A stretch of 64,000 bases of DNA from Streptomyces sp. NBC_01463. Lineage in GTDB: Bacteria > Actinomycetota > Actinomycetes > Streptomycetales > Streptomycetaceae. The notes beneath the pieces were generated by a model. The model was not told the origin of the DNA. It ran no database searches and saw nothing but the letters and a program-made list of their open reading frames with translations. Below, one piece after another: positions 6,231 to 62,865 of this stretch. The stretch covers positions 2,542,001-2,606,000 of the forward strand of contig CP109468.1 in the NCBI GenBank assembly GCA_036227345.1, in the 5' to 3' direction. How positions within the stretch are numbered: the stretch's first letter is position 1; every line of letters begins with the position of its first letter. The position numbers and the translations under genes are program-made.

Positions 6231-6293
6231 CGCTGCGTCAGCTAAGGTCCGGCCTCGCCCAGCCCGCCAGACAGGACCCAGGGGGACAGCGTC

Positions 6294-7259: not shown

Positions 7260-7265
7260 GACGCG

Positions 7266-7305
7266 CGTACGGCCCCGGTTCGCGGATGCGGGCCGGGGCC
7301 GTACG
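7266..7305. terminator. Convergent terminator, oxidoreductase / glcP
   Basis: A perfect 13-bp stem (CGTACGGCCCCGG and its complement, 7266-7278 and 7293-7305) with a 14-nt loop lies between two convergent genes. Confidence 0.8.
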
Positions 7306-7332
7306 ACGTCGAGGAGAGCGGGGCAGCGGGGG

Positions 7333-8751: not shown

Positions 8752-8815
8752 GTGAACTCCTCGGGCCTGGCCGCAACGTCAGGCGTGGGGGGCGAGCTCT
8801 TCTCAGTGGCGCACA

Positions 8816-8886
8816 ACTTCATCTCTGCCACCACTTGAAGGTAAAAACGACGTTGCAGAGACTATGCGTTCAAGTTATGAAGTCAA
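8816..8886 (-). promoter_or_regulatory. glcP promoter with interleaved inverted repeats
   Basis: On the minus strand TTGACT (8881-8886) and TAGTCT (8859-8864) form a -35/-10 pair with a 16-nt spacer. Three pairs of 7-bp inverted repeats interleave across the site: ACTTCAT/ATGAAGT (8816-8822, 8877-8883), TCTCTGC/GCAGAGA (8822-8828, 8855-8861) and ACTTGAA/TTCAAGT (8833-8839, 8869-8875). Two of the half-sites lie inside the -35/-10 spacer, as expected for repressor binding. The regulator is unknown. Confidence 0.6.
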
Positions 8887-8960
8887 TCTCGGGGTCCGGT
8901 CTGACATCTACCCAGGAACACCCAAAAGGTGCGTTGAAGCTTTGAAGATTGGGTAAAGGC

Positions 8961-11900: not shown

Positions 11901-12752
11901 CTGGAGCCTCGGGGTCAGCCGTCGTACCTCGTCCTCCAGTTCGGCCTCGCGGGCCAGGGCCGCCTTCAGTTCCGTCTCGGCCGCCTCGCGGCGCTGCTTC
12001 AGGGCCGCCTCGTCCGCGATCTCGCCGCGCAGCGCGGTGTGCAGCCGGACCAGGTCGTCGGCCAGGAGCCGCAGCCGGGCGTCACGCAGGTCGGCCTGGA
12101 TGACAGCGGCGCGGCGGGCCACGGCCGCCTGCCGGCCGAGCGGTTTCAGCTGCCGCCGCAGTTCGTCGGTGAGGTCCTGCACCCGGGCCAGATTGGCCCC
12201 CATCGCGTCCAGCTTCCGCAGCGCCTTCTCCTTGCGCTTGCGGTGCTTGAGGACGCCCGCGGCCTCCTCGATGAAGGCGCGGCGCCCCATCGGGTCCGCG
12301 TGGAGCACGGAATCCAGCTGGCCCTGGCCGACGATGACGTGCATCTCCCGGCCGATACCGGAGTCCGAGAGGAGTTCCTGGATGTCCAGCAGCCGGCAGG
12401 TGTCACCATTGATCTGGTATTCGCTGCCGCCGTTGCGGAACATGATCCGAGTGATCGTCACTTCGGCGTACTCGATGGGCAGTGCACCGTCGGAATTGTC
12501 GATGGTCAGCGACACCTCCGCCCGGCCGAGCGGCGGACGCCCGGTCGTACCGGCGAAGATGACGTCCTCCATCTTGCCGCCGCGCAGGGATTTGGCGCCC
12601 TGCTCCCCCATGACCCAGGAGAGCGCGTCCACCACATTGGACTTGCCCGATCCATTGGGACCGACCACGCAGGTGATCCCGGGTTCGAACCGCAGGGTCG
12701 TGGCGGAGGCGAACGATTTGAAACCACGCAGGGTCAGGGCCTTGAGGTGCAC
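8961..12752 (-). CDS. smc: SMC chromosome-partition ATPase with an enlarged hinge
   Basis: A 1263-residue structural-maintenance-of-chromosomes protein, the core of condensin with ScpA/ScpB. The Walker A motif is GPNGSGKSN (31-39); two long coiled coils (about 165-500 and 690-1010) flank a hinge; the signature LSLLSGGERSLTA and Walker B FYVMDEVEAALDD lie near the C-terminus (about 1168-1205). S. coelicolor SMC is about 1190 residues by memory. The excess here is explained by a Gly/Pro/Ala-rich insert of about 75-80 residues in the hinge (DNA about 10790-11030), which reads in frame. The start is GTG at 12752 with only a weak ribosome binding site, and homologues begin with the same MHLKALTLRGFKSFA. 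Its long antisense open frame is a composition effect. Confidence 0.97.
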   Translation of the reverse strand: MHLKALTLRGFKSFASATTLRFEPGITCVVGPNGSGKSNVVDALSWVMGEQGAKSLRGGKMEDVIFAGTTGRPPLGRAEVSLTIDNSDGALPIEYAEVTITRIMFRNGGSEYQINGDTCRLLDIQELLSDSGIGREMHVIVGQGQLDSVLHADPMGRRAFIEEAAGVLKHRKRKEKALRKLDAMGANLARVQDLTDELRRQLKPLGRQAAVARRAAVIQADLRDARLRLLADDLVRLHTALRGEIADEAALKQRREAAETELKAALAREAELEDEVRRLTPRLQRAQQTWYELSQLAERVRGTISLADARVKSATAPAEEERRGRDPEDMEREAARIREQEAELTAALEAAEHALEDTASHRSELERELVAEERRLKDAARALADRREGLARLNGQVNAARSRAGSAQSEIDRLAASRDEAQERAVAAQEEYEQLKAEVDGLDADDTELGERHEAARRELKEAEGALSAAREDATTAERERAAVAARHDALALGLRRKDGTGALLGARDQLAGLLGPAAELLTVAPGHEIAVAAALGAAADAVAVTDPATAAEAIRLLRKQDAGRAALLLGGRRGGAGPAGPDARGHVPGQGPEAQPAPGAGVAHLPGQSTEPAHDGTGPEPAVSLAGQRPAGTGAGTGPAGTGAESAGHPAALALAGGRRVPAVADLVSGPVELMAAVRRLVRDMVVVGTLEDAEDLVAAHPELTAVTGEGDVLSAHFAHGGSAGAPSLLEVQASVDEAAAELADLAVRCTELAGTQRLAAERRGSCAALVEELGERRRAAEREKSGVAQQLGRLAGQARGAAGEAERMAASAARAQEALERATQEAEELAERLLVAEEASEDGADEEPDTAVRDRLAADGANARQTEMEARLQVRTHEERVKALAGRADSLDRGARAEREARARVEQRRARLRHEAAVASAVASGARQLLAHVEVSVVRAQEERAAAEASKAERERELAAERHRGRELKGELDKLTDSVHRGEVLGAEKRLRIEQLEAKALEELGVEPAGLAAEYGPDQLVPPSPAAEGEELPEDPEHPRNQPKPFVRAEQEKRLKSAERAYQQLGKVNPLALEEFSALEERHKFLSEQLEDLKKTRADLMQVIKEVDERVEQVFTEAYRDTAREFEGVFSRLFPGGEGRLILTDPDNMLATGVDVEARPPGKKVKRLSLLSGGERSLTAVALLVSIFKARPSPFYVMDEVEAALDDTNLQRLIRIMEELQESSQLIVITHQKRTMEVADALYGVSMQGDGVSKVISQRLR

Positions 12753-12874
12753 GCCGCCGGACTCTACCTTTCGCTCTCGGTTTCGCTGATGAAGGTGCAG
12801 GGCACATCAGACGGTAAGGGAAGGGGTGCATGTCCGGGGCGGGACCTGCGCAGGCCGGAGGGGAAAAGAAAGAA

Positions 12875-12892
12875 GGGACGCCGAAGCGTCCC
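12875..12892 (-). terminator. UUCG-loop terminator upstream of smc
   Basis: On the minus strand a perfect 7-bp stem GGGACGC/GCGTCCC closes a TTCG tetraloop and is followed by TTCTTTCTTTTCC, a classic intrinsic terminator. It would end the transcript of the 70-aa gene (13101-13313). The remaining 348-nt gap to that gene shows no other gene; the smc promoter should lie between about 12770 and 12870, but no good -35/-10 pair is visible there. Confidence 0.8.
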
Positions 12893-13100
12893 CTGCAAAT
12901 CTTGTGGCATGCCGACAAAACGTGTGCGGTGCTGTGTCTGCGGATCCGCGGCCTCCATGAAGGCGCGCGTGCCGGATCAGTGACAAGGCAGATGGAGAAG
13001 CAGACCAAGAGTGAATTGATCTTCAATGATCCGGTGACGATCCGGCGATGATCCCGTGCGGCTGACGCGTGCAGCCCGACCGGCCCCATGGGGCCATCGG

Positions 13101-13313
13101 TCAGGTCAGCGCCGGCTCCGCCTGAGGTACGTCGATGTCGATGCTGTCGAGCAGCGACTCTTGGTGCTGGGCGGCGGCGTTGAGCGCGTCGTTCTCGTCC
13201 TGAATCCGTACGAGCTCGGACTCAAGATCCTGGACGCGCTGCTGAAGCCGTCGCATCTCGGCGAGGAGTCGCGGGTCGGAACCGCCGACGTAACCGAGAA
13301 GCGCCTTTGCCAT
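13101..13313 (-). CDS. Small coiled-coil protein, 70 aa
   Basis: The sequence starts MAKALLGYVGGSDPRLLAEM and continues with a heptad-like helix (RRLQQRVQDLESELVRIQDEND) and an acidic tail. It is soluble, with no Cys and no membrane segment. GGAGGACC precedes the ATG by 7 nt. It sits between acylphosphatase and smc on the same strand and ends at its own terminator. I do not recognise a named family. The coiled coil and position invite, but do not prove, a role in chromosome or cell-pole biology. Confidence 0.75.
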   Translation of the reverse strand: MAKALLGYVGGSDPRLLAEMRRLQQRVQDLESELVRIQDENDALNAAAQHQESLLDSIDIDVPQAEPALT

Positions 13314-13752
13314 GATGGATGGTCCTCCACACTGAGTGACCGACCGATGCGGTGTGGGTCGTGAGGGAATCGCACCCGCGGTGCTCGGCAGTGCTCTGTG
13401 TTCACTGCTGTTCTGCTGCCAAACAGCTCTGCCGAACAGCTAAGGTGCGCGGGGTTTTCAGCGTCTCACCAAAAAGTTTGACGGTCAACACGATCACACC
13501 CTGTAGAGGCGGGCGTCCCGGGGGCGCGCGGCTTGACGATCATGCGGCGCGACTCTCCAGCGGGGCCCTCAGGGGCACGGAGATCATCCTTACTGCCGCA
13601 GCCTGGCATGGCAACCGAATCTTGGCAACCACCGGGTCCCTCCGCAGGTCATTTCATGTGTAGGCATGACCGCACCCCTCGCCGTCACCCCGCGCCGCGC
13701 CTCGAACACATTCCGAACACGGGCTGTGTTTCCACCCCGCCCGGGAGCCGGA
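13314..13752. other. 439-nt gap between the 70-aa gene and acylphosphatase
   Basis: No convincing gene. A TTGACC at about 13480 on the minus strand followed by an AT-rich spacer is the best promoter-like piece and could drive the 70-aa gene with a leader of about 140 nt. Short plus-strand open frames here lack ribosome binding sites and family features. Confidence 0.4.
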
Positions 13753-14034
13753 TCAGCGGATCGCGAATCCCTCATATCCGCCTCGCGGCGTGTCCCAGAT
13801 CTCAGTGACGCCGTCAACGCGGCCGGGTGTGTCGTCCGAACGCAGCCAATCCAGCAGACGGTGGCAATTGTCACGCCGCCCCTCGGCCACGACCTGCACC
13901 CGGCCGTCGTCGAGATTGAGGGCGAATCCGGTGAGACCACCGATCTCCAAAGCGTTTGCCCTGGTGAACCAGCGGAACCCTACTTGCTGTACTCGGCCGC
14001 GTACCCAAGCGGTGAGTCGCACATCTTCGTTCAT
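13753..14034 (-). CDS. acyP: Acylphosphatase
   Basis: A 93-residue enzyme hydrolysing acyl phosphates. The family signature [14 protein letters not shown] (about residues 11-24) carries the phosphate-binding loop and catalytic Arg (FRW). [20 protein letters not shown] (about 33-52) supplies the conserved Asn and the beta strand. The length is typical. The ATG at 14034 has no Shine-Dalgarno but has TAGCGT (14041-14046) 6 nt upstream, so a leaderless transcript is likely. It lies close to smc, as in S. coelicolor. Confidence 0.93.
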
Positions 14035-14178
14035 GCCCGAACGCTAACCGGCCAATTGCTCTCTGAGCACTTCTCGCCGATTCGCGATGGCGTACAGTCC
14101 CCTCGCAATAGCTTCACTCGATCGGGTGAGCAAAGGTGCGCCGACAACGGCGTCCAGATCGTCAGAAGGGCACAGCAG

Positions 14179-15135
14179 ATGGGACGCCATCGACGCTCCG
14201 CCGCAGCTCCCGCCGCTGAACCGTACGCGGAGGGGACCGACGGCCGGGACCAGGGTTCGCGCCGCAGGAAGCGGTCGCGCATACCGGTACGCACGGGACT
14301 GCTCGGCGTCTCCGCCGCCATGGCCGTCGGCGCCGTCGCCGTCGCCTCCGGTCTGCTGCCCGGCGGCGACAACTACAACGTGGGCGGCGGTCCGGCCGCC
14401 GACCAGGTGCGCTCGGAGGCGGCCCCGGACCTGCTGACGCAGGGCGGTTCCACCACCCCGCCGCCCGACCGCGCATCCGCGTCGGCCCAGGCCAGCCGGG
14501 GTACCGAGCGCGCGAAGGCGCCCACGAAGTCGCACTCCCCCAAGACCGGTTCCCCTTCCGCGTCGGCGTCCCCGTCGAAGACCTCCGCGCCGTCGAAGAG
14601 CCCCGCGAAGGAGCGGACGAAGCCGTCCGCCTCCGCCAAGGCACCGACGGCGGAGGCCACGAAGAGCTCCTCGGCCCCGGTGAAGACGTCGAGCCCGGCC
14701 TCCACCAAGGCCTCGGCCTCTGCCCCGGCCGCCCGCAAGTCCACCGCGCCGGCCGCGCCCGCCTCGACCCAGGCCGCCGTGCTCGCCCTGGTCAACCAGG
14801 AGCGCGCCAAGGTCGGCTGCAGCCCGGTCACGACCAGTTCCTCGCTGACCTCGCTCGCCCAGAACTTCAGCGACGACATGGCGGCCCGCGGGTTCTTCGA
14901 CCACACGGACCCGGACGGGAAGTCCCCGTGGGACCGTGCCGCCGCGGCCGGTGTCTCCGGACTCGGCGGGGAGAACATCGCCCGCGGCCAGGCCGACGCC
15001 GAGGCCGTGATGGAGGCCTGGATGAACAGCGAAGGCCACCGAGCAAACATTCTCAACTGCGACTACAAGACGCTCGGCGTGGGTGTCCACCTCGGGGCCG
15101 GCGGCCCCTGGTGGACCCAGGACTTCGGCTTCTGA
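14179..15135 (+). CDS. Exported CAP/SCP-domain (allergen V5/Tpx-1-like) protein
   Basis: A 318-residue protein. After a basic N-terminus (MGRHRRSAAAP, RRRKRSRIPVR) comes one hydrophobic segment (about 41-57), acting as signal anchor or signal peptide. A long Ser/Ala/Thr/Lys/Pro low-complexity linker of cell-wall-spanning type follows (about 75-195), then a C-terminal CAP domain (about 197-318). The domain has the family residues FFDHTDPDGKSPWDRA (His), GENIARG (Glu) and EGHRANILN (Glu-His). Cysteines near CSPV and ILNCDY may form a disulphide. The ATG at 14179 has AGAAGGG at 8 nt; earlier in-frame starts lack a ribosome binding site and would begin upstream within the divergent acylphosphatase gene. 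The function of bacterial CAP proteins is mostly unknown. Confidence 0.88.
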   Translation: MGRHRRSAAAPAAEPYAEGTDGRDQGSRRRKRSRIPVRTGLLGVSAAMAVGAVAVASGLLPGGDNYNVGGGPAADQVRSEAAPDLLTQGGSTTPPPDRASASAQASRGTERAKAPTKSHSPKTGSPSASASPSKTSAPSKSPAKERTKPSASAKAPTAEATKSSSAPVKTSSPASTKASASAPAARKSTAPAAPASTQAAVLALVNQERAKVGCSPVTTSSSLTSLAQNFSDDMAARGFFDHTDPDGKSPWDRAAAAGVSGLGGENIARGQADAEAVMEAWMNSEGHRANILNCDYKTLGVGVHLGAGGPWWTQDFGF

Positions 15136-15216
15136 GGTCCACGGGGCTCCTGCTGAGCCCCGCCCGTCCCGCATCACCACCCGCTCCATCCCCGTACGCC
15201 CCACACGCTCACTCAC

Positions 15217-15258
15217 GGATTGCGCAATCCCGTGGAGGGCGCTGTGCGGGCGTACGCT
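15217..15258 (+). promoter_or_regulatory. HxlR-gene promoter with a 14-bp palindrome
   Basis: GGATTGCGCAATCC (15217-15230) is a perfect palindrome. A -10-like TACGCT (15253-15258) follows, 7 nt before the ATG at 15266. The palindrome lies at the upstream edge of the -35 region, the expected place for an autoregulatory operator of the adjacent winged-helix regulator. Confidence 0.55.
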
Positions 15259-15265
15259 GGTTTTC

Positions 15266-15706
15266 ATGGACGAGACCGGCGGCAATGGACACCTCGACGG
15301 CAACGCTGCGGACGGCGGCTGTCCGAACGGCGACCTGCCCTTCGACGTGTTCTCCAAGCAGTGCCCCTCGCGCGGCACCCTGGAACACGTCACCGGCCGC
15401 TGGGGCAGCCTGACACTCGGCGCCCTGTACGAGGAGAGCCTCCGGTTCAACGCGCTGCGCCGCCGGGTCGACGGGGTGAGCGAGAAGATGCTCTCGCAGA
15501 CGCTGCACGCGCTGGAGCGGGACGGACTGGTGCACCGCGAGGCCCAGCCGACCAATCCGCCGCGCGTCGACTACGAACTCACACCCCTCGGGCGGCAGGT
15601 CGCCGAACAGCTGCTCGGTCTGATCCACCTCGTCGAGGGCCGGATGTCCGAGGTCCTGGTGGCCCGGGGGCGTTACGACGAGTCCCACGCGGTCCGCGGG
15701 GTCTGA
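15266..15706 (+). CDS. HxlR-family winged-helix transcription regulator
   Basis: A 146-residue DNA-binding protein. The HxlR landmarks are CPSRGTLEHVTGRWGSLTLGALYE (Cys plus the first helices, about 31-54 counting from the ATG), LRFNALRRRVDGVSEKMLSQTL (recognition helix), LERDGLVHREA and YELTPLGRQV (wing). The single upstream Cys resembles that of redox- or electrophile-sensing members, but sensing is inferred. The start is the ATG at 15266 with TACGCT 7 nt upstream and no ribosome binding site. The stop codon is one base from that of mutM, which converges on it. The target genes are unknown; no obvious partner is divergently placed. Confidence 0.88.
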   Translation: MDETGGNGHLDGNAADGGCPNGDLPFDVFSKQCPSRGTLEHVTGRWGSLTLGALYEESLRFNALRRRVDGVSEKMLSQTLHALERDGLVHREAQPTNPPRVDYELTPLGRQVAEQLLGLIHLVEGRMSEVLVARGRYDESHAVRGV

Positions 15707-15707
15707 G

Positions 15708-16562
15708 TCAGACGCGGGGCGGGCGCTGGCAGCGCGGGCAGAAATAGCTGGACCGGTTCATCCAGGCGCGGCGCCGCATCGGCGTACCGCAGCGGTGGCA
15801 CGGCTCGTCCTCGCGCCCGTAGGCGTCGAGCGAGCGGTCGAAGTAGCCGGACTCGCCGTTGACGTTCACGTAGAGACTGTCGAAGCTCGTGCCGCCCTGC
15901 GCCAGCGCCGCGTTCATGACGTCGCGGACATGGCCGAGCAGCTCGGCCGACTTGGGGCGGGTCAGGGTCGCGGTCGGACGGTCGTAGTGCAGTTTCGCCC
16001 GCCAGAGCGCCTCGTCCGCGTAGATGTTGCCGACGCCGCTGATCAGGGACTGGTCGAGCAGGGCGCGCTTGACCGTCGTACGGCGCAGGCGCAGCGCGGT
16101 GTGGAACACCGCGTCGTCGAAGGCCGGGTCCAGTGGGTCGCGGGCGATGTGCGCGATGGTGTCGGGCAGTCCCTCGGCGGTGTTCTCGTGGAGGGAGAGG
16201 CCGCCGAAGGTGCGCTGGTCGACGAAGCGCAGCTCGGTGCCGGTGGAGTCGTCGAACCGGATCCTGATCCGCAGGTGCTTCTCGTCGGGTGCGTCCTCGG
16301 GCTGTACGAGGAGCTGGCCGCTCATCCCGAGGTGGCCCAGGAGCGAGGTGGCCTCCTCGTCGAGCGGCACCCACAGGTACTTGCCGCGGCGCATCGCCGT
16401 GCCCAGGCGGACGCCGCCAAGCCGGGCAGCGAAGTCCGCACCGCCCGCGAGGTGCCGGCGGACCGCCCGCGGATGCAGGACCTCGACCTCGCCGACCGTG
16501 CGCCCGGTGACCCAGCGTTCGAGACCGCGCCGGACGACTTCGACCTCGGGCAGCTCGGGCAC
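15708..16562 (-). CDS. mutM: Formamidopyrimidine-DNA glycosylase (Fpg/MutM)
   Basis: A 284-residue bifunctional base-excision repair enzyme that removes 8-oxoguanine and nicks the strand. The mature N-terminus [14 protein letters not shown] supplies catalytic Pro2 and Glu3. A conserved Lys sits in MRRGKYLW. The H2TH region includes [20 protein letters not shown], and a C-terminal zinc finger carries [11 protein letters not shown] and YFCPRC. The GTG at 16562 is fixed by the required Pro2, with CCAGGAG upstream. It follows rnc, separated by a hairpin. A short (GGATCT)n-like triplication lies in its leader. Confidence 0.96.
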
Positions 16563-46904: not shown

Positions 46905-47312
46905 ATGACCCCGCCACCCGCCTCACCCGATCCGTACGGCGCGTTGAACCACGCGTCGTACGAAGGTGAAGGCGACCAGCCGCTGGTCCGTCCGTACGCC
47001 ATGACCGGCGGCCGGACCCGACCGCGCTACCAACTAGCGATAGAGGCGCTGGTCAGCACCACGGCCGACCCCGCGCACCTGGGGACCCTGCTCCCCGAGC
47101 ACCAGCGGATCTGCCACCTCTGCCGTGAGGTCAAGTCGGTGGCGGAGGTGTCGGCCCTGCTGTCGATGCCGCTCGGTGTGGCCCGGATCCTCGTCGCGGA
47201 CCTGGCGGAAGCCGGCATGGTGGCCATCCACCAGCCGGGCAATGGAGAGGCCGGCGGCGCGCCGGATGTGACACTGCTCGAAAGGGTGCTCAGTGGACTT
47301 CGCAAGCTCTAG
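46905..47312 (+). CDS. cvnC: CvnC of conservon 1: DUF742 protein
   Basis: A 135-residue DUF742 protein: LVRPYAMTGGRTRPRYQLAI, then EHQRICHLCREVKSVAEVSA, LLSMPLGVARILVADLAEAG and VTLLERVLSGLRKL, a winged-helix-like fold. The ATG at 46905 has GGAGGATTC upstream. It overlaps cvnD by 20 nt. Confidence 0.93.
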   Translation: MTPPPASPDPYGALNHASYEGEGDQPLVRPYAMTGGRTRPRYQLAIEALVSTTADPAHLGTLLPEHQRICHLCREVKSVAEVSALLSMPLGVARILVADLAEAGMVAIHQPGNGEAGGAPDVTLLERVLSGLRKL

Positions 47313-47874
47313 TGGCGGTGCGGCCCGGGCCACCACGTCGGCGAAGATCGTGGTGGCGGGCGGATTCGGCGTGGGCAAGACCACGTTTGTCGGTGCCGTT
47401 TCGGAGATCAATCCGCTGCGTACCGAAGCCGTGATGACGTCCGCCTCCGCGGGCATCGACGACCTGACGCACACCGGCGGCAAGACCACCACGACGGTGG
47501 CCATGGACTTCGGCCGCATCACCCTGGACCAGGACCTGATCCTGTACCTCTTCGGTACACCCGGACAGGACCGCTTCTGGTTCATGTGGGACGACCTCGT
47601 ACGCGGCGCCATCGGCGCCGTCGTCCTGGTCGACACCCGGCGCCTCGCCGACTGCTTCCCCGCCGTCGACTACTTCGAGAACAGCGGACTGCCGTTCGTC
47701 ATCGCCCTCAACGGCTTCGACGGACACCAGCCCTACACCCCCGACGAAGTCCGCGAAGCCCTCCAGATCGGACCCGACACCCCGATCATCACCACCGATG
47801 CCCGGCATCGCGGTGACGCCAAGAGCGGCCTGATCACGCTGGTGGAGCACGCGTTGATGGCGCGGCTCAAGTAG
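47293..47874 (+). CDS. cvnD: CvnD of conservon 1: Ras-like GTPase
   Basis: A 193-residue small GTPase. The P-loop is GGFGVGKTTFVGAVSEI, switch II YLFGTPGQDRFWFMW (G3 as TPGQ), and the base-specificity position lies in IALNGFDG (N-G-F-D in place of NKxD). MglA/Ras-like members cycle GTP with CvnB as partner. The GTG at 47293 lies within cvnC. Most of the gene is nearly identical in DNA to cvnD of conservon 2. Confidence 0.94.
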   Translation: MDFASSSGGAARATTSAKIVVAGGFGVGKTTFVGAVSEINPLRTEAVMTSASAGIDDLTHTGGKTTTTVAMDFGRITLDQDLILYLFGTPGQDRFWFMWDDLVRGAIGAVVLVDTRRLADCFPAVDYFENSGLPFVIALNGFDGHQPYTPDEVREALQIGPDTPIITTDARHRGDAKSGLITLVEHALMARLK

Positions 47875-51955: not shown

Positions 51956-52600
51956 GTGGGTACACCCCCAGGCGGGCACCAGTTCAACGGTGGTCAGCAG
52001 GTACCGGGTGAGCACGGGGACCATGGTTACGGGTTCCCCTCCACACCCGGCAGACAGGGCGCGCAGCAGCCTTACCAGCCGTATCGGCAGCCACAGCAGC
52101 CGCAGCCGCCGCAGCACGTCCGGGGCTCGGACTGGCCGCAGCAGCCGCAGCAGCCGAACCGGCCGCAGCGCCCGCACCGGTACGACTCCCCGCAGCAGCC
52201 GCCCCGCATTCAGCCGGTGCAGCCGCGGCGGGCCCCCGAGCCGGCCGCGCCCGCCGCTCACAATCCGCTGGTCCGTCCGTACGCCATGACAGGTGGACGG
52301 ACCCGACCGCGCTACCAACTCGCCATTGAGGCGTTGGTCAGTACGACGGCCGATCCGTCCCGGCTGCAAGGGCAGTTGCCCGAGCACCAGCGGATCTGCC
52401 GGCTGTGCATCGAGATCAAGTCGGTGGCCGAGATCTCGGCCCTGCTCTCGATCCCCCTCGGCGTTGCCCGGATCCTCGTAGCCGACCTGGCTGAGGCCGG
52501 ACTCGTCGCTATCCACCAGCCCGGCGGCGACGAGTCCGCCGGCGGCCAGCCAGATGTGACACTGCTCGAAAGGGTGCTCAGTGGACTTCGCAAGCTCTAG
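51956..52600 (+). CDS. cvnC: CvnC of conservon 2: DUF742 protein with a long Gln/Pro-rich N-terminus
   Basis: A 214-residue protein, about 80 residues longer than its paralogue because of an N-terminal Gly/Gln/Pro/Arg-rich extension (QQPYQPYRQPQQPQPPQHVR). The DUF742 domain (about 100-214) carries the same landmarks. The GTG at 51956 has GGAGGAGG upstream. It overlaps cvnD by 20 nt, as in conservon 1. Confidence 0.92.
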   Translation: MGTPPGGHQFNGGQQVPGEHGDHGYGFPSTPGRQGAQQPYQPYRQPQQPQPPQHVRGSDWPQQPQQPNRPQRPHRYDSPQQPPRIQPVQPRRAPEPAAPAAHNPLVRPYAMTGGRTRPRYQLAIEALVSTTADPSRLQGQLPEHQRICRLCIEIKSVAEISALLSIPLGVARILVADLAEAGLVAIHQPGGDESAGGQPDVTLLERVLSGLRKL

Positions 52601-53162
52601 CGGCGGAGCGGCCCGCTCCACTACCTCGGCGAAGATCGTGGTGGCAGGGGGCTTCGGCGTGGGTAAGACCACGTTTGTCGGTGCCGTTTCGGAGATCAAT
52701 CCGCTGCGTACCGAAGCCGTGATGACGTCCGCCTCCGCGGGCATCGACGACCTGACGCACACCGGGGACAAGACCACCACGACGGTGGCCATGGACTTCG
52801 GCCGCATCACCCTGGACCAGGACCTGATCCTGTACCTCTTCGGTACACCCGGACAGGACCGCTTCTGGTTCATGTGGGACGACCTCGTACGCGGCGCCAT
52901 CGGCGCCGTCGTCCTGGTCGACACCCGGCGCCTCGCCGACTGCTTCCCCGCCGTCGACTACTTCGAGAACAGCGGACTGCCGTTCGTCATCGCCCTCAAC
53001 GGCTTCGACGGACACCAGCCCTACACCCCCGACGAAGTCCGCGAAGCCCTCCAGATCGGACCCGACACCCCGATCCTGACGACGGACGCGCGGCACCGGG
53101 CGGATGCGAAGAGTGCGCTGATCACGTTGGTGGAGCACGCGCTGATGGCCCGCCTGCGGTAG
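52581..53162 (+). CDS. cvnD: CvnD of conservon 2: Ras-like GTPase
   Basis: A 193-residue GTPase with six residue differences from the conservon 1 copy (A13S, G63D and four near the C-terminus). All GTP-site motifs are intact. It shares a 411-bp DNA tract, 52665-53075, with the paralogue (two mismatches), flanked by clearly divergent sequence. Confidence 0.94.
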   Translation: MDFASSSGGAARSTTSAKIVVAGGFGVGKTTFVGAVSEINPLRTEAVMTSASAGIDDLTHTGDKTTTTVAMDFGRITLDQDLILYLFGTPGQDRFWFMWDDLVRGAIGAVVLVDTRRLADCFPAVDYFENSGLPFVIALNGFDGHQPYTPDEVREALQIGPDTPILTTDARHRADAKSALITLVEHALMARLR

Positions 53163-55384: not shown

Positions 55385-56623
55385 TCACTGTGGTCTGCCG
55401 CACACCCCCCTCAGCCGGGGGGTCTCCGAGCGCTGGGTGTCCTGGACCTTCTGGACGTCCGCCAGCCGGTCCCGTACCGGATCGGAGGGGTGCGCCACGG
55501 TCAGCAGCACGGCCTCGTAGAAAGCATCCCGCACCGCCGCCGGCATGACGTCCGACGCGTCCAGGCAGAGCGGCACCTGCTGGCCCGTGAGCCGCCGGCT
55601 CACCTCCTTGTCGACCGGGCCCGTCTTGGGCGGGACCGCGGCGTTCGGCGAGAACACCCCGCCCTTGCGGCCCCAGTCCTCCTGGGCGTCCAGGGAGGCC
55701 AGCCGCCGGATCAGGCCGCGGGCAGCGCCACTACCGCCGAACAGCGCGGCGAAGTCGGCCGACACCTCGTGGGCCCTCACCCGGTAGGGACCGCCGGGCA
55801 GCAGGCGTGCGGAGTCCTCGAAGACCGCCCGGCCGCCGCGGTCCCCGTAGAAGGCGCGGGCGAAGGAGCCCTGGTGTTCCAGGTCGCAGCCGCCGCCGAA
55901 GAGCAGCCCGTGGCCCCCGGCCGGGCCGCGGTGGTCGGCCATCAGCATGTCCTCGGCCGTCCCCTTGTCCTGGGCGAGCATCCCGGCCCAGGCGGTCCAG
56001 GCGGCGACCACCCGGTCGTCGGTCCACGCCAGGTCGCCGGTCGCCCAGCGCTCGTACAGCCCGGGGCCGGCGCGCTGGAGGATGAGGTCCTCGATCCAGT
56101 CGCTGCCGGGCCAGCCCGACGCGCCGTCGTCGACCATGCCGATGCACCAGGAGGCCAGCGGTGCCGGGCCGCGTGCCGGGGACGTGCCCTCGCGGTACCA
56201 GACGATGGACTTGAGGTCGGCCTTGAGCGGAAACCACAGATCGCCGGGGATGCCGTCCGCCCGGGGCCGCCAGGGGTTGCCGTACTGCTGCGGCTCGTAC
56301 AGCCCCTCCAGCGAGCGCAGCCGTCTCTCGTCCGCGTACTCCACGAGTTCGCCGACGCCCGGCAGGATCGCGATGTCGGGCGGGTCGCCGGCCTGCACCT
56401 CGGCGAGCAGCACCTCGCGGGTGGCGGCGGTGCCCTGGTAGGTGTACGGGATCCCGAACCCGTCCAGAACGTCCTTGAACTGCCGCTCCTGTTCGTCGGT
56501 CCACGGGCCGAGGATGGTCACCTTCGGTTCGGCGTCGCTGCCGCCGGGGGCCGCGAGTCCGCAGCCGGCCGCGGTCATCAGCAGGGCCAGGACGAGCAGA
56601 GTTGCGCGGGTGTGCCGGGTCAT
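55385..56623 (-). CDS. Solute-binding lipoprotein without a transporter
   Basis: A 412-residue exported protein. A signal peptide with a lipobox-like end (LLVLALLMTAAGC, Cys21) is followed by an extracellular solute-binding fold of the family-1 type: VTILGPWTDEQERQFKDVLD, EVQAGDPPDIAILPGVGELV, WFPLKADLKSIVWYREG, and WPGSDWIEDLILQRAGPGLY. No ABC permease or ATPase gene adjoins it. It is the last gene of the operon, overlapping the membrane-protein gene by ATGA, which suggests a ligand-sensing rather than transport role, by analogy with GlnH of the mycobacterial PknG system (inferred). The ligand is unknown. Confidence 0.85.
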   Translation of the reverse strand: MTRHTRATLLVLALLMTAAGCGLAAPGGSDAEPKVTILGPWTDEQERQFKDVLDGFGIPYTYQGTAATREVLLAEVQAGDPPDIAILPGVGELVEYADERRLRSLEGLYEPQQYGNPWRPRADGIPGDLWFPLKADLKSIVWYREGTSPARGPAPLASWCIGMVDDGASGWPGSDWIEDLILQRAGPGLYERWATGDLAWTDDRVVAAWTAWAGMLAQDKGTAEDMLMADHRGPAGGHGLLFGGGCDLEHQGSFARAFYGDRGGRAVFEDSARLLPGGPYRVRAHEVSADFAALFGGSGAARGLIRRLASLDAQEDWGRKGGVFSPNAAVPPKTGPVDKEVSRRLTGQQVPLCLDASDVMPAAVRDAFYEAVLLTVAHPSDPVRDRLADVQKVQDTQRSETPRLRGVCGRPQ

Positions 56624-57648
56624 CCGGCCCTCCAGTAGTCGGCGTTGAGGCGCCGGACGATGCCGACGGCCGGCAGCAGGACGATCAGCACGGCCCCGCC
56701 CAGCGCCCCGTAGTACGTGCCGCTCTGCCAGCGGTGGGCGGCCAGTACGCCGCGCAGGTCGGTGGACTTGTCGGTGACGTCCCGCTGGGACTCCGCCAGG
56801 TCGGTTTCGTCGTGGGCCCGTTCCTCGATCGCGACCAGCCGGTGGCGGGCGGTGTCCAGCCGTTCCTGGGTGTGGACGGTGGCCCACAGCGGGACGACCG
56901 CCAGGGCGAGTGTGACCAGCAGCGCCGCCAGCAGCCAGGGGTCGCGGCTGCGGCCGCAGCGGGTGCGCAGCACCCACAGCGCGCTGAGCGCGGTCACCGC
57001 CAGGACGAGCAGGCCCAGTTCGGCTACGGCCCAGCCGCTCTGCTGGAGCGTGCCCAGGGAGCTGACCCGGTCCATGCGCCGCATCTGGTGGTCCTGGAGG
57101 ACGTCCAGGCGGGGCACCACGCCGGTGCCCGGCCGGACGAGGAGGGTCTCGGCCTCCGTGAACTTCTCCTTCTGCATCAGGTCGTCCTCGTCGCGCACGT
57201 ACTTCACCGCGCCGGGTGTGATGGAGCTGCTGTACGAGGTCAGCAGGGCGCTGGCCGTATTGAGGACGCCCCGGCCGCGTTCCCCGTCGATCTGTACGTC
57301 GGAGAGCCGGGACAGGCCCTGGTCGGCGGCGGACAGCTGGTTCTCGTACCGCGCGCCCGCGCCCACCACCTGGTCGATCCGCCGGTCGGCCGAGAGCTCT
57401 GCCTCCTCGTGGGCGCGCAGCAGCGCCAGCTGGGTGGAGGCGACGAGCTGGACGGCGGGCGCGGCACGGGTGCGCATCTCGCCCGCGGCGGTCTGCACAC
57501 TCCAGTACGAGACGAGCAGCGCGGTCATCGAGACGACCGCGGTCACCGCCATGACGGCCAGGTGCCGTTCGAGCAGCCGTCGGGTGTGCGAACCGGGCGG
57601 CCGGCGGGTCAGGAGGGGGCGGGTCCATCGGGTCGGCCGGGTCATCAC
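56620..57648 (-). CDS. Four-helix membrane receptor-like protein (GlnX-like)
   Basis: A 342-residue protein: basic N-terminus, TM1 (about 30-50), an extracytoplasmic helical domain of about 155 residues (charged, EEAELSADRRIDQVV...), TM2 (208-227), TM3 (238-257), a second charged segment (260-310) and TM4 (312-332). The topology resembles mycobacterial GlnX, which relays signals from the binding lipoprotein GlnH to the kinase PknG. I see no kinase, HAMP or enzymatic motif. The GTG at 57648 overlaps the VWA gene's stop (GTGA); ATG at 57645 is an alternative, and GGAGGAG is upstream. Confidence 0.75.
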   Translation of the reverse strand: MMTRPTRWTRPLLTRRPPGSHTRRLLERHLAVMAVTAVVSMTALLVSYWSVQTAAGEMRTRAAPAVQLVASTQLALLRAHEEAELSADRRIDQVVGAGARYENQLSAADQGLSRLSDVQIDGERGRGVLNTASALLTSYSSSITPGAVKYVRDEDDLMQKEKFTEAETLLVRPGTGVVPRLDVLQDHQMRRMDRVSSLGTLQQSGWAVAELGLLVLAVTALSALWVLRTRCGRSRDPWLLAALLVTLALAVVPLWATVHTQERLDTARHRLVAIEERAHDETDLAESQRDVTDKSTDLRGVLAAHRWQSGTYYGALGGAVLIVLLPAVGIVRRLNADYWRAG

Positions 57649-59078
57649 AGGCTCCTCCCGCAGGCGATGCAGAACCGGGCGTGCGGTCCGGCGAGATGGC
57701 GGCAGTGCGGGCAGGTGACCGGCTTCCCGGCGGCGTGCTCGGGCAGTTCGAGCCGGTGGCCCGAGGCGATGTGCAGCCGGCCCCGGCGCACGGTCCCCCG
57801 GTCGACGGTCGGGCCGACCCGGACCAGTCCGCGCGGGCCGTCGACGATGTCGGCGACCTGGCGCACGTCCTGGAGGACCCAGCCGGCGCCGATCTCGGTG
57901 GCGAGCCGGACCGCCAGGCCGAACTGCTGCTCGGCCTCCTCGCGGCTCATCGGGTCGAGTGCGGCGTAGCCGCGGTTGAGGGCGGTGCGCATCTGGGTGG
58001 CGACGTTCATCGCCTGGAGCGTGCCGCCCCCGTCACCGGTCGCGCCCGCGCCCACGGCGACGCCGGGGGGCAGCCAGCGCGTCAGCAGCGGGGCGGTGGT
58101 GTCGCCGACGGAGACGGTGGCCAGTTGCAGCAGCACGCCGAGCGGGTCGGTGCTCGCGTCGACGTGGAGGGTGAGGAGGTAGTCACGGGTGCCCGGCTCC
58201 CACTGGTGGGTGGGGAAGCCGATCCGGTGCGGCTCCCGCGGCCGCAGTTCGGGGGCGAGGCGTTGCTGGCGGGGTGCGGTCTCGGTCAGTTCGACGGCGT
58301 GCACGGCCGGGCGGGCGGCGACCACGACGGGCAGTTCGGGGCTGCGGACCCGGCGCTGGCGCCGCAGCGCCTCGGTGACGGCGGGGCCGAAGCGGTCGGG
58401 GGCGTGCTCGGCGGCGCCGTGCAGGGTCTCGACGACGGTGAGCAGGGGGGCGGGGTCCCAGTCCGCGCCGAACGCGATCACGTCCGCGGTGAACGCGCCC
58501 GCGCAGTCGGCGAGTTCCGCCCGCAGCGCGCCGCCGTCCGTACCGGTGGCGTCCGCATCGTCGGCGTCCGCCGGGTCGTGGCCGCTGCCGTCGGTGATCA
58601 GCAGCAGGTGACGCAGTGGCAGCGGGCGTTCCGCGAAGAGGGCGCGGGCGGCGGCGAGCCAGGCCGGGTAGCCGGGCGGCGGGTGCTCGTCCGTGGCGGG
58701 GGCGACCCGGCCCGCGCTGAACGCGGCCCGGCGCTTCTCCATGGTGTCGGCCAGCGCCCAGCGTCCGCGCAGCGGGTAGCAGCGGGTCGGCTCCCCGCTC
58801 GCGCCGGCGCCGCCCAGGACGGCGAAGGAGATCCCGTCGGGCAGGGCGCGCAGCGCGGCGGCGAGGGCGGCAGCCGCACTCTCCCGGCGGGCCGCGGCGA
58901 CGTCCAGGGCGATGACGACGGCGAGTTCGACGGCGGGCACCTGGTCGCGGGGGCCGATGCCGGTGGCCTTGACCCGCAGATGGGCGTCGATCCGGGCGTC
59001 GTGGTGCGGCTGCTGGTCGCGCCGGACGTCGACGGACACCTTGAACTCCAGCCCGGACGACGGGGCGGTAGCGCCCAT
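57645..59078 (-). CDS. VWA-domain protein with C-terminal zinc ribbon
   Basis: A 477-residue cytoplasmic protein. The N-terminal VWA domain (about 10-230) starts VPAVELAVVIALDVAAARRE; the metal site DxSxS is degenerate (D-V-A-A-A). LRHLLLITDGSG is the second conserved strand. A beta-rich middle part follows (RDYLLTLHVDAST). The end carries VTCPHCRHLAGPHARFCIAC, a zinc ribbon like that at the start of the adjacent kinase. The ATG at 59078 has GGAGGCAGTCCC upstream. It sits between the PknG-like kinase and the membrane receptor, so it may be an adaptor or kinase substrate (inferred). Confidence 0.82.
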   Translation of the reverse strand: MGATAPSSGLEFKVSVDVRRDQQPHHDARIDAHLRVKATGIGPRDQVPAVELAVVIALDVAAARRESAAAALAAALRALPDGISFAVLGGAGASGEPTRCYPLRGRWALADTMEKRRAAFSAGRVAPATDEHPPPGYPAWLAAARALFAERPLPLRHLLLITDGSGHDPADADDADATGTDGGALRAELADCAGAFTADVIAFGADWDPAPLLTVVETLHGAAEHAPDRFGPAVTEALRRQRRVRSPELPVVVAARPAVHAVELTETAPRQQRLAPELRPREPHRIGFPTHQWEPGTRDYLLTLHVDASTDPLGVLLQLATVSVGDTTAPLLTRWLPPGVAVGAGATGDGGGTLQAMNVATQMRTALNRGYAALDPMSREEAEQQFGLAVRLATEIGAGWVLQDVRQVADIVDGPRGLVRVGPTVDRGTVRRGRLHIASGHRLELPEHAAGKPVTCPHCRHLAGPHARFCIACGRSL

Positions 59079-59179
59079 GGGACTGCCTCCAGCGGTTACG
59101 GGCGGGGGTGCGGGTGGGACACGGCCCCGGTCTCCCGGGTCTCGTCGGACTCGTCCGTCACGGACCGGCCGGGGGCCGG

Positions 59180-61477
59180 TCAGAAGCCGGTCTGCGGGCG
59201 GACCGCGTGGGAGAGGTCGATCAGCCGTTCGTACTCGGCCTGTCTCTGCCGCTGCCGGGCCAGCCAGCGGTAGCACCGCTCCAGCTCCGCCCGCACGGCC
59301 CGCTCACCGGGCACGGCCGGGGGCGGCAGCCCGATCCGCAGCCGGCCGCCGCGGGGCCGCGGGACCGGGTGCGCGTCCCGGACGGCGTCGAGCTTCCACT
59401 CGTACAGCTCGGTCCGCAGCAGCCAGGCGGGTTCGTCCCCCGTGACCACCGGACCCGGCGCGCCCCGCACGGGTGCGAGCGCGGCGAGGCAGGCGTCGAT
59501 CTCCGTCTCGTCGGGCAGCGGCCGCTCCCCCGTCGCGAGCCGGGCCGCCCGGATGCGGAGGGCGGCGATCCGGGCGACGGTGTGGTCCCGCGACTCGTCC
59601 GGCACCTGGTCCAGGACCTCGGTCGCCGCGGCCCGGTCGCCGCGCGCGAGAGCGAGCCTGGCCAGTCCGAGTGCCGCGCCGACGTGCGAGGGGTTGCGGG
59701 CGTGCACGGCCCGGAAGAGTTCGTACGCGGAGGGGCCCGCGGTGTCCGGCCGGTCCTCGCCGAGCTGCTCGGCGCAGTAGGCCAGCGCCAGTTTGGCCGC
59801 GTACTCGCCGGGCAGCGCCCGGTGCACGGCGGAGAAGTGCTCCAGGGCCGCTTCGAGCATCGGCTGCCGGTCGTCCAGCACATCGGCGCTGCGCAGCGCG
59901 ACGAGTCCCCAGTGCCAGCTGAGCCGCCACTGCCGGACCGGACCGGGGCCGGGTATGGCGGCGGCGGCCTGGACCTGCTCCCTGGCCGCCGACAGCGCCT
60001 CGTCCCCGTCCTGGCCGAGCAGCAGCCGGGCGTTGTGCAGACAGATCTCCACCGACGGCTCCCCCTCGGCGGGCTGGGTCAGCGGCTGCGCCGGGTCGTA
60101 GCTGCTGACCCCGAACCGGGCGGCCTGCGGGTCCCGCGGATAGGGGCGGGGCACCGGCAGCCTGCGGGCGATCTCGGTCGGGGTGGGCCGTCCGGTGTCG
60201 AGCGCGGGTGCCTGGGGCGTCGCCCGGCGTCCGTGCAGCGGGCGGCTCAGCCAGTGCGCGTAGCCGGGCACCGAGCCCAGCCGCGCGCCCAGCAGTTCGG
60301 TGGACGGGGTGAAGTAGTCGGAAGGTTCGGGCTGGTCGCGCTTGCCGCGCAGGGCCCGGATCTCGCGGAGCACGCCGCGCAATTGGCCGGCCATGTCCTC
60401 GGCCGAGCCGAATCTGCGCTCCGGGTCGTGGGCCGTGGCCCGCTCCACGACCAGCCGGAAGGAGCTGGTGCCGAGCCCCGGCACGTCGTCGCCGACCGCC
60501 CAGCCGGCCAGTTCGGCCAGGGTGACCCCGACCGTGTGGACGTCGTGGGCGACGGTGAGGGGTTTGCTGCCGTCCATCTCGGGGGCGGCGAACCACGGGG
60601 TGATGACGGGCGGCGGGTCGGTGGCCCCCGCCTTGCGGACCCCGCCGAGGTCGATGACCTTGATGCCGTCGAGGTGGTGGATCACGTTGGACGGCTTCAT
60701 GTCGCCGTACAGGAAGCCCATGCCGTGCAGATGGGCGAGGGCCTCCAGGATCTGGCAGCCGTAGGTGATGACGTGCTCGATGTCGAGGACGAAGGCGCCC
60801 TGCCGGGTCGACTCCACGACGGCGGACAGCGTCCGGTCGCCGACGTCCTCCATCACGATGTAGCCGCCGGAGACGGTGCCGTCCGTGTTGCGGGTGCTGA
60901 CGAAGTCGCGGATCTGGACGATGCGTTCGTGCCGGATGGCGACCAGGCTGCGGCGTTCCTCGCCGGCCTGGGCGGCGCCGCGTTCCGCGTAGCGGTTGAG
61001 GAGTCCCTTGACCGCGACGAAGTCCTCCAGGTGGGTGTCCTCGGCCAGGTAGACCCAGCCCTGGCCGCCGTGGGCGATCGGGCCGCGGATGCGGTACTGG
61101 TCCTGGAGCGGCGGCCCGTCCTTCGTCAGCTCCGGGCGGTAGGAGTACGGGGCGCCGCACTGCGGGCAGTACCCCGCGTCCGGGGGCGGGGCGGCCGTGT
61201 GGGGCGGGACGAACGCGGTGTCGCACGCCTCGGCCGAACACGTCATCACGATGCGCACCGGGCGTTCGGCGGCGGCGAGCCGCTCGGCGGGGGTGCCGGG
61301 GTCCAGCAGCGGCAGTTCGAGCAGTCCCGCGGGGCCCTGGCGTTCGGGTTCGGCGGGCAGCGGCGGAAGTCCGCGGGCCGTCTCGTCCCGGCCGCAGGTG
61401 TCGCAGTACCCGGTGGTGAGTACGCCGCCGCCGCAGGGGGCGCCGGTGAAGCGCCGGTGCGGGCAGGGAATCCTCAT
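59180..61477 (-). CDS. PknG-like serine/threonine protein kinase
   Basis: A 765-residue soluble kinase with PknG architecture. An N-terminal pair of Cys sites (C5/C15/C25/C28, and C80/C85/C104/C107 as a rubredoxin-like knuckle) precedes the kinase domain (about 125-400): AHGGQGWVYLAED (Gly loop), VAVKG (Lys157), YGDMKPSNVI (catalytic Asp259; PknG-style lacking the HRD Arg) and IDLGGVRK (DLG for DFG). A TPR-like helical region (about 480-760) completes it. Mycobacterial PknG phosphorylates the FHA protein GarA and controls glutamate metabolism. The ATG at 61477 overlaps the protease gene's stop (ATGA), with GGCGGAGC upstream. Confidence 0.92.
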   Translation of the reverse strand: MRIPCPHRRFTGAPCGGGVLTTGYCDTCGRDETARGLPPLPAEPERQGPAGLLELPLLDPGTPAERLAAAERPVRIVMTCSAEACDTAFVPPHTAAPPPDAGYCPQCGAPYSYRPELTKDGPPLQDQYRIRGPIAHGGQGWVYLAEDTHLEDFVAVKGLLNRYAERGAAQAGEERRSLVAIRHERIVQIRDFVSTRNTDGTVSGGYIVMEDVGDRTLSAVVESTRQGAFVLDIEHVITYGCQILEALAHLHGMGFLYGDMKPSNVIHHLDGIKVIDLGGVRKAGATDPPPVITPWFAAPEMDGSKPLTVAHDVHTVGVTLAELAGWAVGDDVPGLGTSSFRLVVERATAHDPERRFGSAEDMAGQLRGVLREIRALRGKRDQPEPSDYFTPSTELLGARLGSVPGYAHWLSRPLHGRRATPQAPALDTGRPTPTEIARRLPVPRPYPRDPQAARFGVSSYDPAQPLTQPAEGEPSVEICLHNARLLLGQDGDEALSAAREQVQAAAAIPGPGPVRQWRLSWHWGLVALRSADVLDDRQPMLEAALEHFSAVHRALPGEYAAKLALAYCAEQLGEDRPDTAGPSAYELFRAVHARNPSHVGAALGLARLALARGDRAAATEVLDQVPDESRDHTVARIAALRIRAARLATGERPLPDETEIDACLAALAPVRGAPGPVVTGDEPAWLLRTELYEWKLDAVRDAHPVPRPRGGRLRIGLPPPAVPGERAVRAELERCYRWLARQRQRQAEYERLIDLSHAVRPQTGF

Positions 61478-62865
61478 CGGCGCTCCGCCGGGCCGGGTCC
61501 GCCGCGCTGGCCCGGCAGATCCGGCTGCCCGGACCGGTGCGACCGGTCGAGGTCGTCGCCTAACTCGCGCAGCAGCTGCTTCAGTTCGGTCAGCTGGTCC
61601 TGCGGGTCGGCCAGCAGACTCAGTTCGTGCAGCCGGTGGCGGCGGACCGATGCCTCGACCGCGGGCCGCGGGACGAGGGAGGCCGACTCCACCATGCCGC
61701 GCAGTCCGGTCCACTCCCGTTCGATGCGCTCGACCCGGCGCACCAGCACGTCCGCGCGCTCCTGGAGGGCGGGCACCAGGAGCTGCCGCGCCACCTCGGT
61801 GAGCCCTTCGCCGTCGCTGCGGCGGAAGATGACGAGCAGCCGGAATCCGAGGGTGCGCACCCGGGCCAGGAGCGGCACCAGGGCGGCCGGGTCGGGGTCC
61901 TCGTCCAGGCCGATCACGGCGAGCACCGGACCGGATCCGGCGGGCCGGCCGCCGTCCGAGCGGTCCGGTGCCCTGCCGCCCTCCAGCAGCCAGTCGCGGT
62001 AGGCGTTGCGCTGGTAGCGGGGCGGGCGCAGCTGCGCGACCAGGGTGTCGACGAGTTCCTCGGGCCGGGTGCTGCCGCCCCGGCAGACGAGGTGGGCCCG
62101 GTGGAGCTGGTGCTGCAGGGCGCGGTCGCGGCCGCTGCCGCGGGCGACGACGCCGAACCGCACGCCGGGCTCCTCGCCGCCCGCGAACCACTGCCGCAGC
62201 CGCCGCTCCAGGCCGCGGTCCCAGCCGTCCGGCCCGCTGAGCTCGGCGACGAGCGGCACGAGGGCGGCGATGCGGTCGACGGGGATCATGTACGAGATCG
62301 CCAGGCCGTGCCCGCCGGGCGGCGCCGGGTCCGTACCGGGCCGGTAGCTGACGACGAGGCCGACGACCTCCTCCGTCCCCGGCAGCTCGCCGCGGGTCTG
62401 GACGGCGGCGCCGCTGAACCCGGGGCGCACCGCCTCGGCTTCGGACCCGGAGGCGATTTGCACCCAGTCACCGTGCAGTCCGCTGATCCGGCCGCTGAGC
62501 CACATCCCGTCGTCGTAGGCCTGGGCGTAGCCGCCGATCCACACCTCCCGGCCGCGCTCCAGCCGGCGGGCCAGCGGTGCGGGCGCGGCCTGCGGGCGTG
62601 GGCTGTCCAGGGCGAGCACGGCGATGTCCTCGCCGGTGGCCCCGTCGAGGCCCGGCAGCCAGCCGTCCGGGGCGACCCGGGCGCCGACCGGCGGGATGCC
62701 GGGGCTCTCGGCGAACTCGACCCACATCCGGACGCCCGGTTCACCGAGGACATGGGCGCAGGTCAGCGCCCGGTCCTGGGTGAGGAGCACACCGGCCCCG
62801 CACACGGGTCCGTCCGCTCCGCCGCGGCGCAACCGGAGCCGCCAGTCCGCTCTCAACTCCCCCAT
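61474..62865 (-). CDS. Trypsin-like serine protease with a novel C-terminal domain
   Basis: A 463-residue protein with no signal peptide, so presumably cytoplasmic. The trypsin-like domain (about 5-215) has the full triad: LTCAHVLGE (His38), GEDIAVLAL (Asp80) and VRPGFSGAAV (Ser151). The C-terminal half (about 220-463) has a QWFAGGEEPG segment, an alpha/beta part (VLAVIGLDEDPDP, RLLVIFRRSDGEG) and a final helical region with no family I recognise. Such protease-plus-unknown-domain proteins occur in bacterial signalling and conflict systems. The ATG at 62865 has TACTCT 8 nt upstream (leaderless?); an ATG ten codons earlier is the alternative. It is the first gene of the operon. Confidence 0.82.
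   Translation of the reverse strand: MGELRADWRLRLRRGGADGPVCGAGVLLTQDRALTCAHVLGEPGVRMWVEFAESPGIPPVGARVAPDGWLPGLDGATGEDIAVLALDSPRPQAAPAPLARRLERGREVWIGGYAQAYDDGMWLSGRISGLHGDWVQIASGSEAEAVRPGFSGAAVQTRGELPGTEEVVGLVVSYRPGTDPAPPGGHGLAISYMIPVDRIAALVPLVAELSGPDGWDRGLERRLRQWFAGGEEPGVRFGVVARGSGRDRALQHQLHRAHLVCRGGSTRPEELVDTLVAQLRPPRYQRNAYRDWLLEGGRAPDRSDGGRPAGSGPVLAVIGLDEDPDPAALVPLLARVRTLGFRLLVIFRRSDGEGLTEVARQLLVPALQERADVLVRRVERIEREWTGLRGMVESASLVPRPAVEASVRRHRLHELSLLADPQDQLTELKQLLRELGDDLDRSHRSGQPDLPGQRGGPGPAERR

Follow-up and report, generated by a model that had tools for sequence, protein, structure and literature searches.

We identified an operon of five head-to-tail genes on the minus strand (62865-55385) of a 64,000-nucleotide stretch of the Streptomyces sp. 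NBC_01463 genome (contig CP109468.1; hereafter the window). The genes encode, in order, a trypsin-like protease, a PknG-type Ser/Thr kinase, a VWA protein, a GlnX-like membrane protein and a solute-binding protein (SBP) that is a putative lipoprotein. The operon is likely a paralogous GlnX/GlnH/PknG-type sensory system for a sugar or glycan ligand, with a relay from SBP through receptor, receptor tail and TPR domain to the kinase, and with the VWA protein and protease in the kinase's complex. The original prediction, made from the DNA alone, described an expanded pknG operon. That description has to be revised, as the 9.07 Mb genome retains an intact canonical pknG locus elsewhere and the window unit is its paralogue. 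No description of the five-gene form was found in the full text of open-licence papers, among the matches listed.

A paralogue of the canonical pknG locus

PknG_TPR was found at two places in the genome, the window (116.6 bits) and locus L004 (291.8 bits), and the receptor at one place. L004 comprises seven genes (5362-16493 of that locus, minus strand), for a GlnX-like protein, GlnH (SBP_bac_3, E 3e-25), a coiled-coil-like (CC) protein, PknG (rubredoxin, E 2.7e-33; TPR, E 4.7e-86), a PP2C with a zinc ribbon, a VWA protein and an FHA protein. Homologues of all seven genes were identified at L089, L090 and L091, and only GlnX, GlnH and PknG at L086-L088 (other members of the class). The canonical Streptomyces locus, with its PP2C, VWA and FHA genes, is thus larger than the mycobacterial three-gene form.

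The window operon and the canonical Streptomyces locus (L004, L089-L091) share kinase, receptor and VWA homologues and have functionally corresponding SBPs. In addition, the canonical CC protein has a domain in common with the type-B proteases described below. Unlike the operon, the canonical locus has PP2C and FHA genes and an SBP_bac_3 protein, and lacks a protease. The VWA protein, originally counted as an addition, is already present in canonical Streptomyces loci. The paralogue is set apart by a sugar-type SBP, a protease and the loss of PP2C and FHA; Pfam identified no PP2C in any of the five genes or in their two neighbours. The operon adjoins the canonical VWA-FHA genes at L044 and L045, and L048 has a broken copy at the same place. 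Of the 71 loci compared (see below), just these three yielded PP2C and FHA homologues, with the canonical locus next door.

The GlnX-GlnH-PknG system of Mycobacterium and Corynebacterium (PMC6069109, PMC9769921, PMC8546545) likewise combines a PknG-type kinase with TPR, a lipoprotein SBP and a four-transmembrane (TM) receptor with a LytS-like 4-helix ectodomain and short C-tail, encoded by adjacent genes. The window system differs in that its SBP has a sugar-receptor fold rather than SBP_bac_3, its second ectodomain is shrunken, and a protease and VWA protein are part of the operon.

The kinase

The kinase (59180..61477, minus strand; 765 aa) matches Pkinase (PF00069, E 2.8e-25) and PknG_TPR (PF16918, E 3.2e-33; 115 bits against a cut-off of 27, residues 431-763), and its best PDB match is PknG (2pzi, E 1.1e-63). 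Catalytic residues K157, D259, N264 and D276 are present, with YGD and DLG motifs. The catalytic K, D, N and D are retained in 44 of 45 aligned kinases, canonical ones included; the exception (L036) was truncated by the start chosen for it, and its full open reading frame (ORF) has a Pkinase domain. N-terminal Cys pairs were identified, with a PknG_rubred match of 18.2 bits, below the 28.5 cut-off that the type-B kinase of L024 exceeds (40.3 bits). The rubredoxin domain of PknG is absent in Corynebacteriaceae, according to PMC6069109.

A FastTree phylogeny of 59 kinases groups the 50 operon kinases in a single clade (local support 1.0 without L072, 0.0 with it) and the five Streptomyces canonical PknGs in another (support 1.0). 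The placement of L072 and that of the root have support 0.0. Two kinases, SGR_4432 and SCO1468, are named as SBP-linked in PMC6069109, the only paper that a literature search for them gave, and no link between them and the operon family was established.

The GlnX-like receptor

The membrane protein (56620..57645, minus strand; 341 aa from ATG) has four hydrophobic segments, a short TM2-TM3 linker and a short C-tail. Neither it nor the SBP has a Pfam match above cut-off in the library used; many of its relatives are tagged PF28326 in a large protein database. Homology to GlnX was found via family profiles and intermediate sequences, and was not detected when the window receptor was compared directly with one single GlnX. 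Whole-receptor Foldseek gave a best E of only 0.021, and the ectodomain fold was resolved in a later search: the first ectodomain is predicted to be a 4-helix bundle with LytS as its best match. GlnX has two tandem 4-helix ectodomains; in the modelled window receptor the second has shrunk to a short hairpin. The cytoplasmic tail, RRLNADYWR (56629..56655, minus strand), is related to the GlnX tail RLxE[YF]R. The profile bridges, topology, ectodomain fold and tail together identify the membrane protein as distantly related to GlnX, a similarity on which the original prediction had been made to depend.

The solute-binding lipoprotein

The SBP (55385..56623, minus strand; 412 aa) has a lipobox-like TAAGC at residues 17-21, read from the sequence, with Cys21 as the candidate lipidated residue. 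Its predicted structure folds like sugar receptors and unlike GlnH. Pfam identified no SBP_bac_3 match in this protein, whereas the canonical GlnH of the same genome does match, and a profile of SBP sequences found no match in the PDB. Judging from the modelled fold, a sugar or a fragment of a glycan is the most probable ligand, which lends support to the earlier suggestion that the ligand is perhaps not an amino acid.

Conservation of the five-gene unit

We fetched 71 loci: 14 named ones by receptor match, 37 from further receptor matches (17 of 21 and 20 of 60 genomes matched besides the window genome in two receptor searches) and 20 from stronger SBP matches. Among those compared, no two loci have an identical kinase, receptor or SBP end. 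Homologues (E 1e-4) of all five genes were identified at 43 loci, in 40 of which the order protease-kinase-VWA-receptor-SBP is direct. The five-gene order is present at 42 of the 71, with L044 and L045 added after the adjoining canonical VWA was set aside; L048 is a broken 43rd. L066, which comes from another family of the class, carries all five genes.

Some incomplete loci are at sequence boundaries: L006, L011, L015 and L027 start at contig ends, and the missing protease of L010 coincides with a 100-N scaffold gap. L018 (draft, split frames) is, like L048, a broken copy. At L075 and L077 a detectable receptor alone is missing. L036, L067 and L068 encode kinase, receptor and SBP, with kinase domains per Pfam; L072 encodes kinase, VWA and SBP; L037 has a fused protease-kinase and no VWA. 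Receptor and SBP only were found at L029, L031, L032, L069 and L070, and likewise at L071, which ends at a contig end. The first five are pairs of a GlnX-like receptor and an SBP with no kinase detected nearby, and the window receptor is linked to GlnX through three of them. At nine of the 71 loci the SBP is the sole operon homologue.

In a genus sample of 199 genomes, receptor matches were found in 61 (E 1e-3) and, in a separate search, protease matches in 66 (E 1e-8; 76 places). The protease lies 4.8-6.4 kb from the receptor on one contig at 38 of the 61 receptor places, and at 25 of the 28 best. All these counts are lower bounds, since no more than 8-10 candidates per genome were scored initially. 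Across 30 operons the pairwise identities of the five genes are correlated (r 0.956-0.977, part of which is due to common descent), and 0 of 500 permutations reach any of the ten values. Across these operons the arrangement persists at minimum pairwise identities as low as 20-34%. The operon is therefore a conserved but patchy unit, beyond chance. Co-conservation had been the other point on which the original prediction was to stand or fall, and it is borne out by the gene order at 42 of 71 loci and the correlated gene distances.

The protease and the VWA protein

The protease (61474..62865, minus strand; 463 aa) has the features of an S1 peptidase, a Trypsin_2 domain (PF13365, E 1.2e-9) and an intact catalytic triad, H38 (62752-62754), D80 (62626-62628) and S151 (62413-62415). 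A hydrophobic N-terminus is absent, and the protein is cytoplasmic as read from its sequence. The triad is retained in 36 of 39 aligned proteases, including that of the window. The L025, L026 and L028 proteases retain the domain and have lost the triad; catalysis is therefore dispensable in some cases. For the unassigned C-terminal half, the look of the sequence raised the idea of a degenerate NTPase. This is unsupported, and Pfam identified no recurring domain there across 22 orthologues.

Two observations connect the protease with the complex of the kinase without assigning it a specific function there. At L037, protease and kinase form one 1434-aa ORF (10269-14573, minus strand; Trypsin_2, E 1.8e-9; Pkinase, E 2.7e-14; PknG_TPR, E 4.4e-37). 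Furthermore, type-B proteases tend to carry a terminal domain homologous to the CC protein, whose gene lies just before canonical pknG. This domain was found in 11 of 41 protease sequences (E < 1e-3; best 42% over 84 residues, 3.8e-11), and a profile of 16 proteases matches the CC protein with E 2.6e-10. The fusion and the domain common to the canonical locus point to a previously unrecognised proteolytic or scaffold partner of PknG. In P0245 (Streptomyces sp. ITFR-16), the N-terminal part of the protease is joined to the SBP by an apparent deletion inside the operon.

The VWA protein (57645..59078, minus strand; 477 aa) matches VWA_3 (PF13768, E 2.3e-12) and ends in a CxxC...CxxC zinc ribbon (57660..57713, minus strand), seen in the sequence and in Pfam matches below cut-offs. 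Its MIDAS metal site is degenerate, with DVAAA in place of DxSxS (58890..58904, minus strand; VWA alignment). Among 45 aligned VWA proteins the DxSxS motif is lost in 23 of window type and kept in 21 (20 type-B plus the canonical one), and one fragment does not cover the site. The metal site is lost in the window's clade. Relatives of this protein match the VWA of the canonical pknG locus at 25-31%.

Proposed mechanism and alternative interpretations

We propose that the lipoprotein SBP binds an extracellular ligand, most probably a sugar or a piece of a glycan, and would then dock onto the receptor's 4-helix ectodomain. The signal would run inward: the TM helices would relay the change to the short cytoplasmic RRLNADYWR tail, and this tail may engage the kinase's TPR domain. 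The TPR domain of PknG has been proposed to bind GlnX, coupling the signal to substrate choice (PMC8546545), and the conserved receptor tail would be a natural candidate for the contact. The kinase would act on a cytoplasmic complex that probably includes the VWA protein and the protease, the latter as part of the output or as a scaffold. Either of the two may be a substrate, a switch or a scaffold; the original prediction had the VWA protein, whose metal motif is lost in this clade, as a candidate adaptor and the protease as a candidate output or switch. A sugar-binding SBP that is read by a 4-helix ectodomain has a precedent in XylFII-LytS (PDB 5XSJ, cited in PMC9769921), where the SBP is described as docking on helices H3/H4 and the output is instead a histidine kinase.

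A receptor-kinase of the same architecture could respond to a non-sugar ligand (a glycan-decorated lipid, peptide, metal chelate or protein), in which case the sugar-receptor fold reflects ancestry only. This is compatible with the proposed relay, from which it differs in the ligand alone, and we regard it as unlikely, if the most credible of the alternatives. We give a still smaller chance to a vWA/trypsin conflict or self-killing system, in which the protease serves as toxic effector and the SBP-receptor pair as detector of an invader or of damage. The systems treated in PMC7159879 do repeatedly contain trypsin-like peptidases, vWA proteins and kinases, and kinase-PP2C-vWA modules and vWA-MoxR ternary systems place a kinase or trypsin together with a vWA protein; the patchy distribution (receptor in 61 of 199 sampled genomes) and the triad intact in 36 of 39 proteases also fit. 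However, no PP2C, MoxR or STAND partner was found in the window operon, and Pfam identified no MoxR, VMAP or STAND domain in the five genes and two flanking genes. PADLOC and NCBIfam gave kinase-type matches to the kinase alone and nothing significant for the other four proteins. According to that paper, most kinases of its vWA systems are catalytically disrupted, whereas the operon kinases are intact, and the fold of the SBP is that of a nutrient receptor.

Some SBPs lack a permease of their own and use shared ones, and relatives of this SBP are annotated as ABC transporter protein. Nevertheless, it is very improbable that this is an ordinary orphan transporter SBP that happens to adjoin an unrelated regulatory cluster. 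The top 10 SBP matches of the same genus (E up to 1.3e-50, window included) all lie beside a gene with similarity to PknG-type kinases, and SBP distances track those of the other four genes. It is the weaker SBP matches elsewhere that stand alone (the nine loci above).

If the sugar-sensing PknG-type relay is correct, one GlnX-like receptor chassis would have been re-equipped with a sugar-type SBP, which suggests that the range of signals open to PknG-type kinases is wider than previously assumed. The binding proteins linked to PknG were predicted to sense amino acids (PMC6069109). The same chassis with a sugar-type sensor, which a substantial minority of the sampled Streptomyces genomes inherit as a unit, would be a natural experiment on PknG-type kinases as general nutrient receptors. 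More tentatively, and with chances somewhat short of even, the PknG receptor superfamily has radiated in Streptomycetaceae and the glycan-controlled kinase-protease complex acts as a transmembrane phospho-proteolytic switch, its protease fused in one lineage and dead in another.

Operon layout and neighbouring genes

The five component proteins named in the original prediction are confirmed, and the gene layout is largely as described there. Overlaps of 4 nt occur at the protease/kinase and membrane protein/SBP junctions, and a 101-nt gap separates the kinase and VWA genes. The VWA/membrane protein overlap depends on the start, being 1 nt from the ATG and 4 nt from an alternative GTG at 57648. 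The operon is flanked by genes for an acyl-CoA carboxylase beta subunit and a polysaccharide lyase 8, and Pfam identified no permease in these two genes. The carboxylase gene was judged positional: it comes next after the operon at all 14 named loci and at L038, L039 and L047, and was not found at the other G-genome loci. Elsewhere in the window, two small GTPase-like genes (47293-47874 and 52581-53162, plus strand) encode products identical at 188 of 194 residues. The pairing suggests two adjacent clusters of the type that we take to be conservons (cvn).
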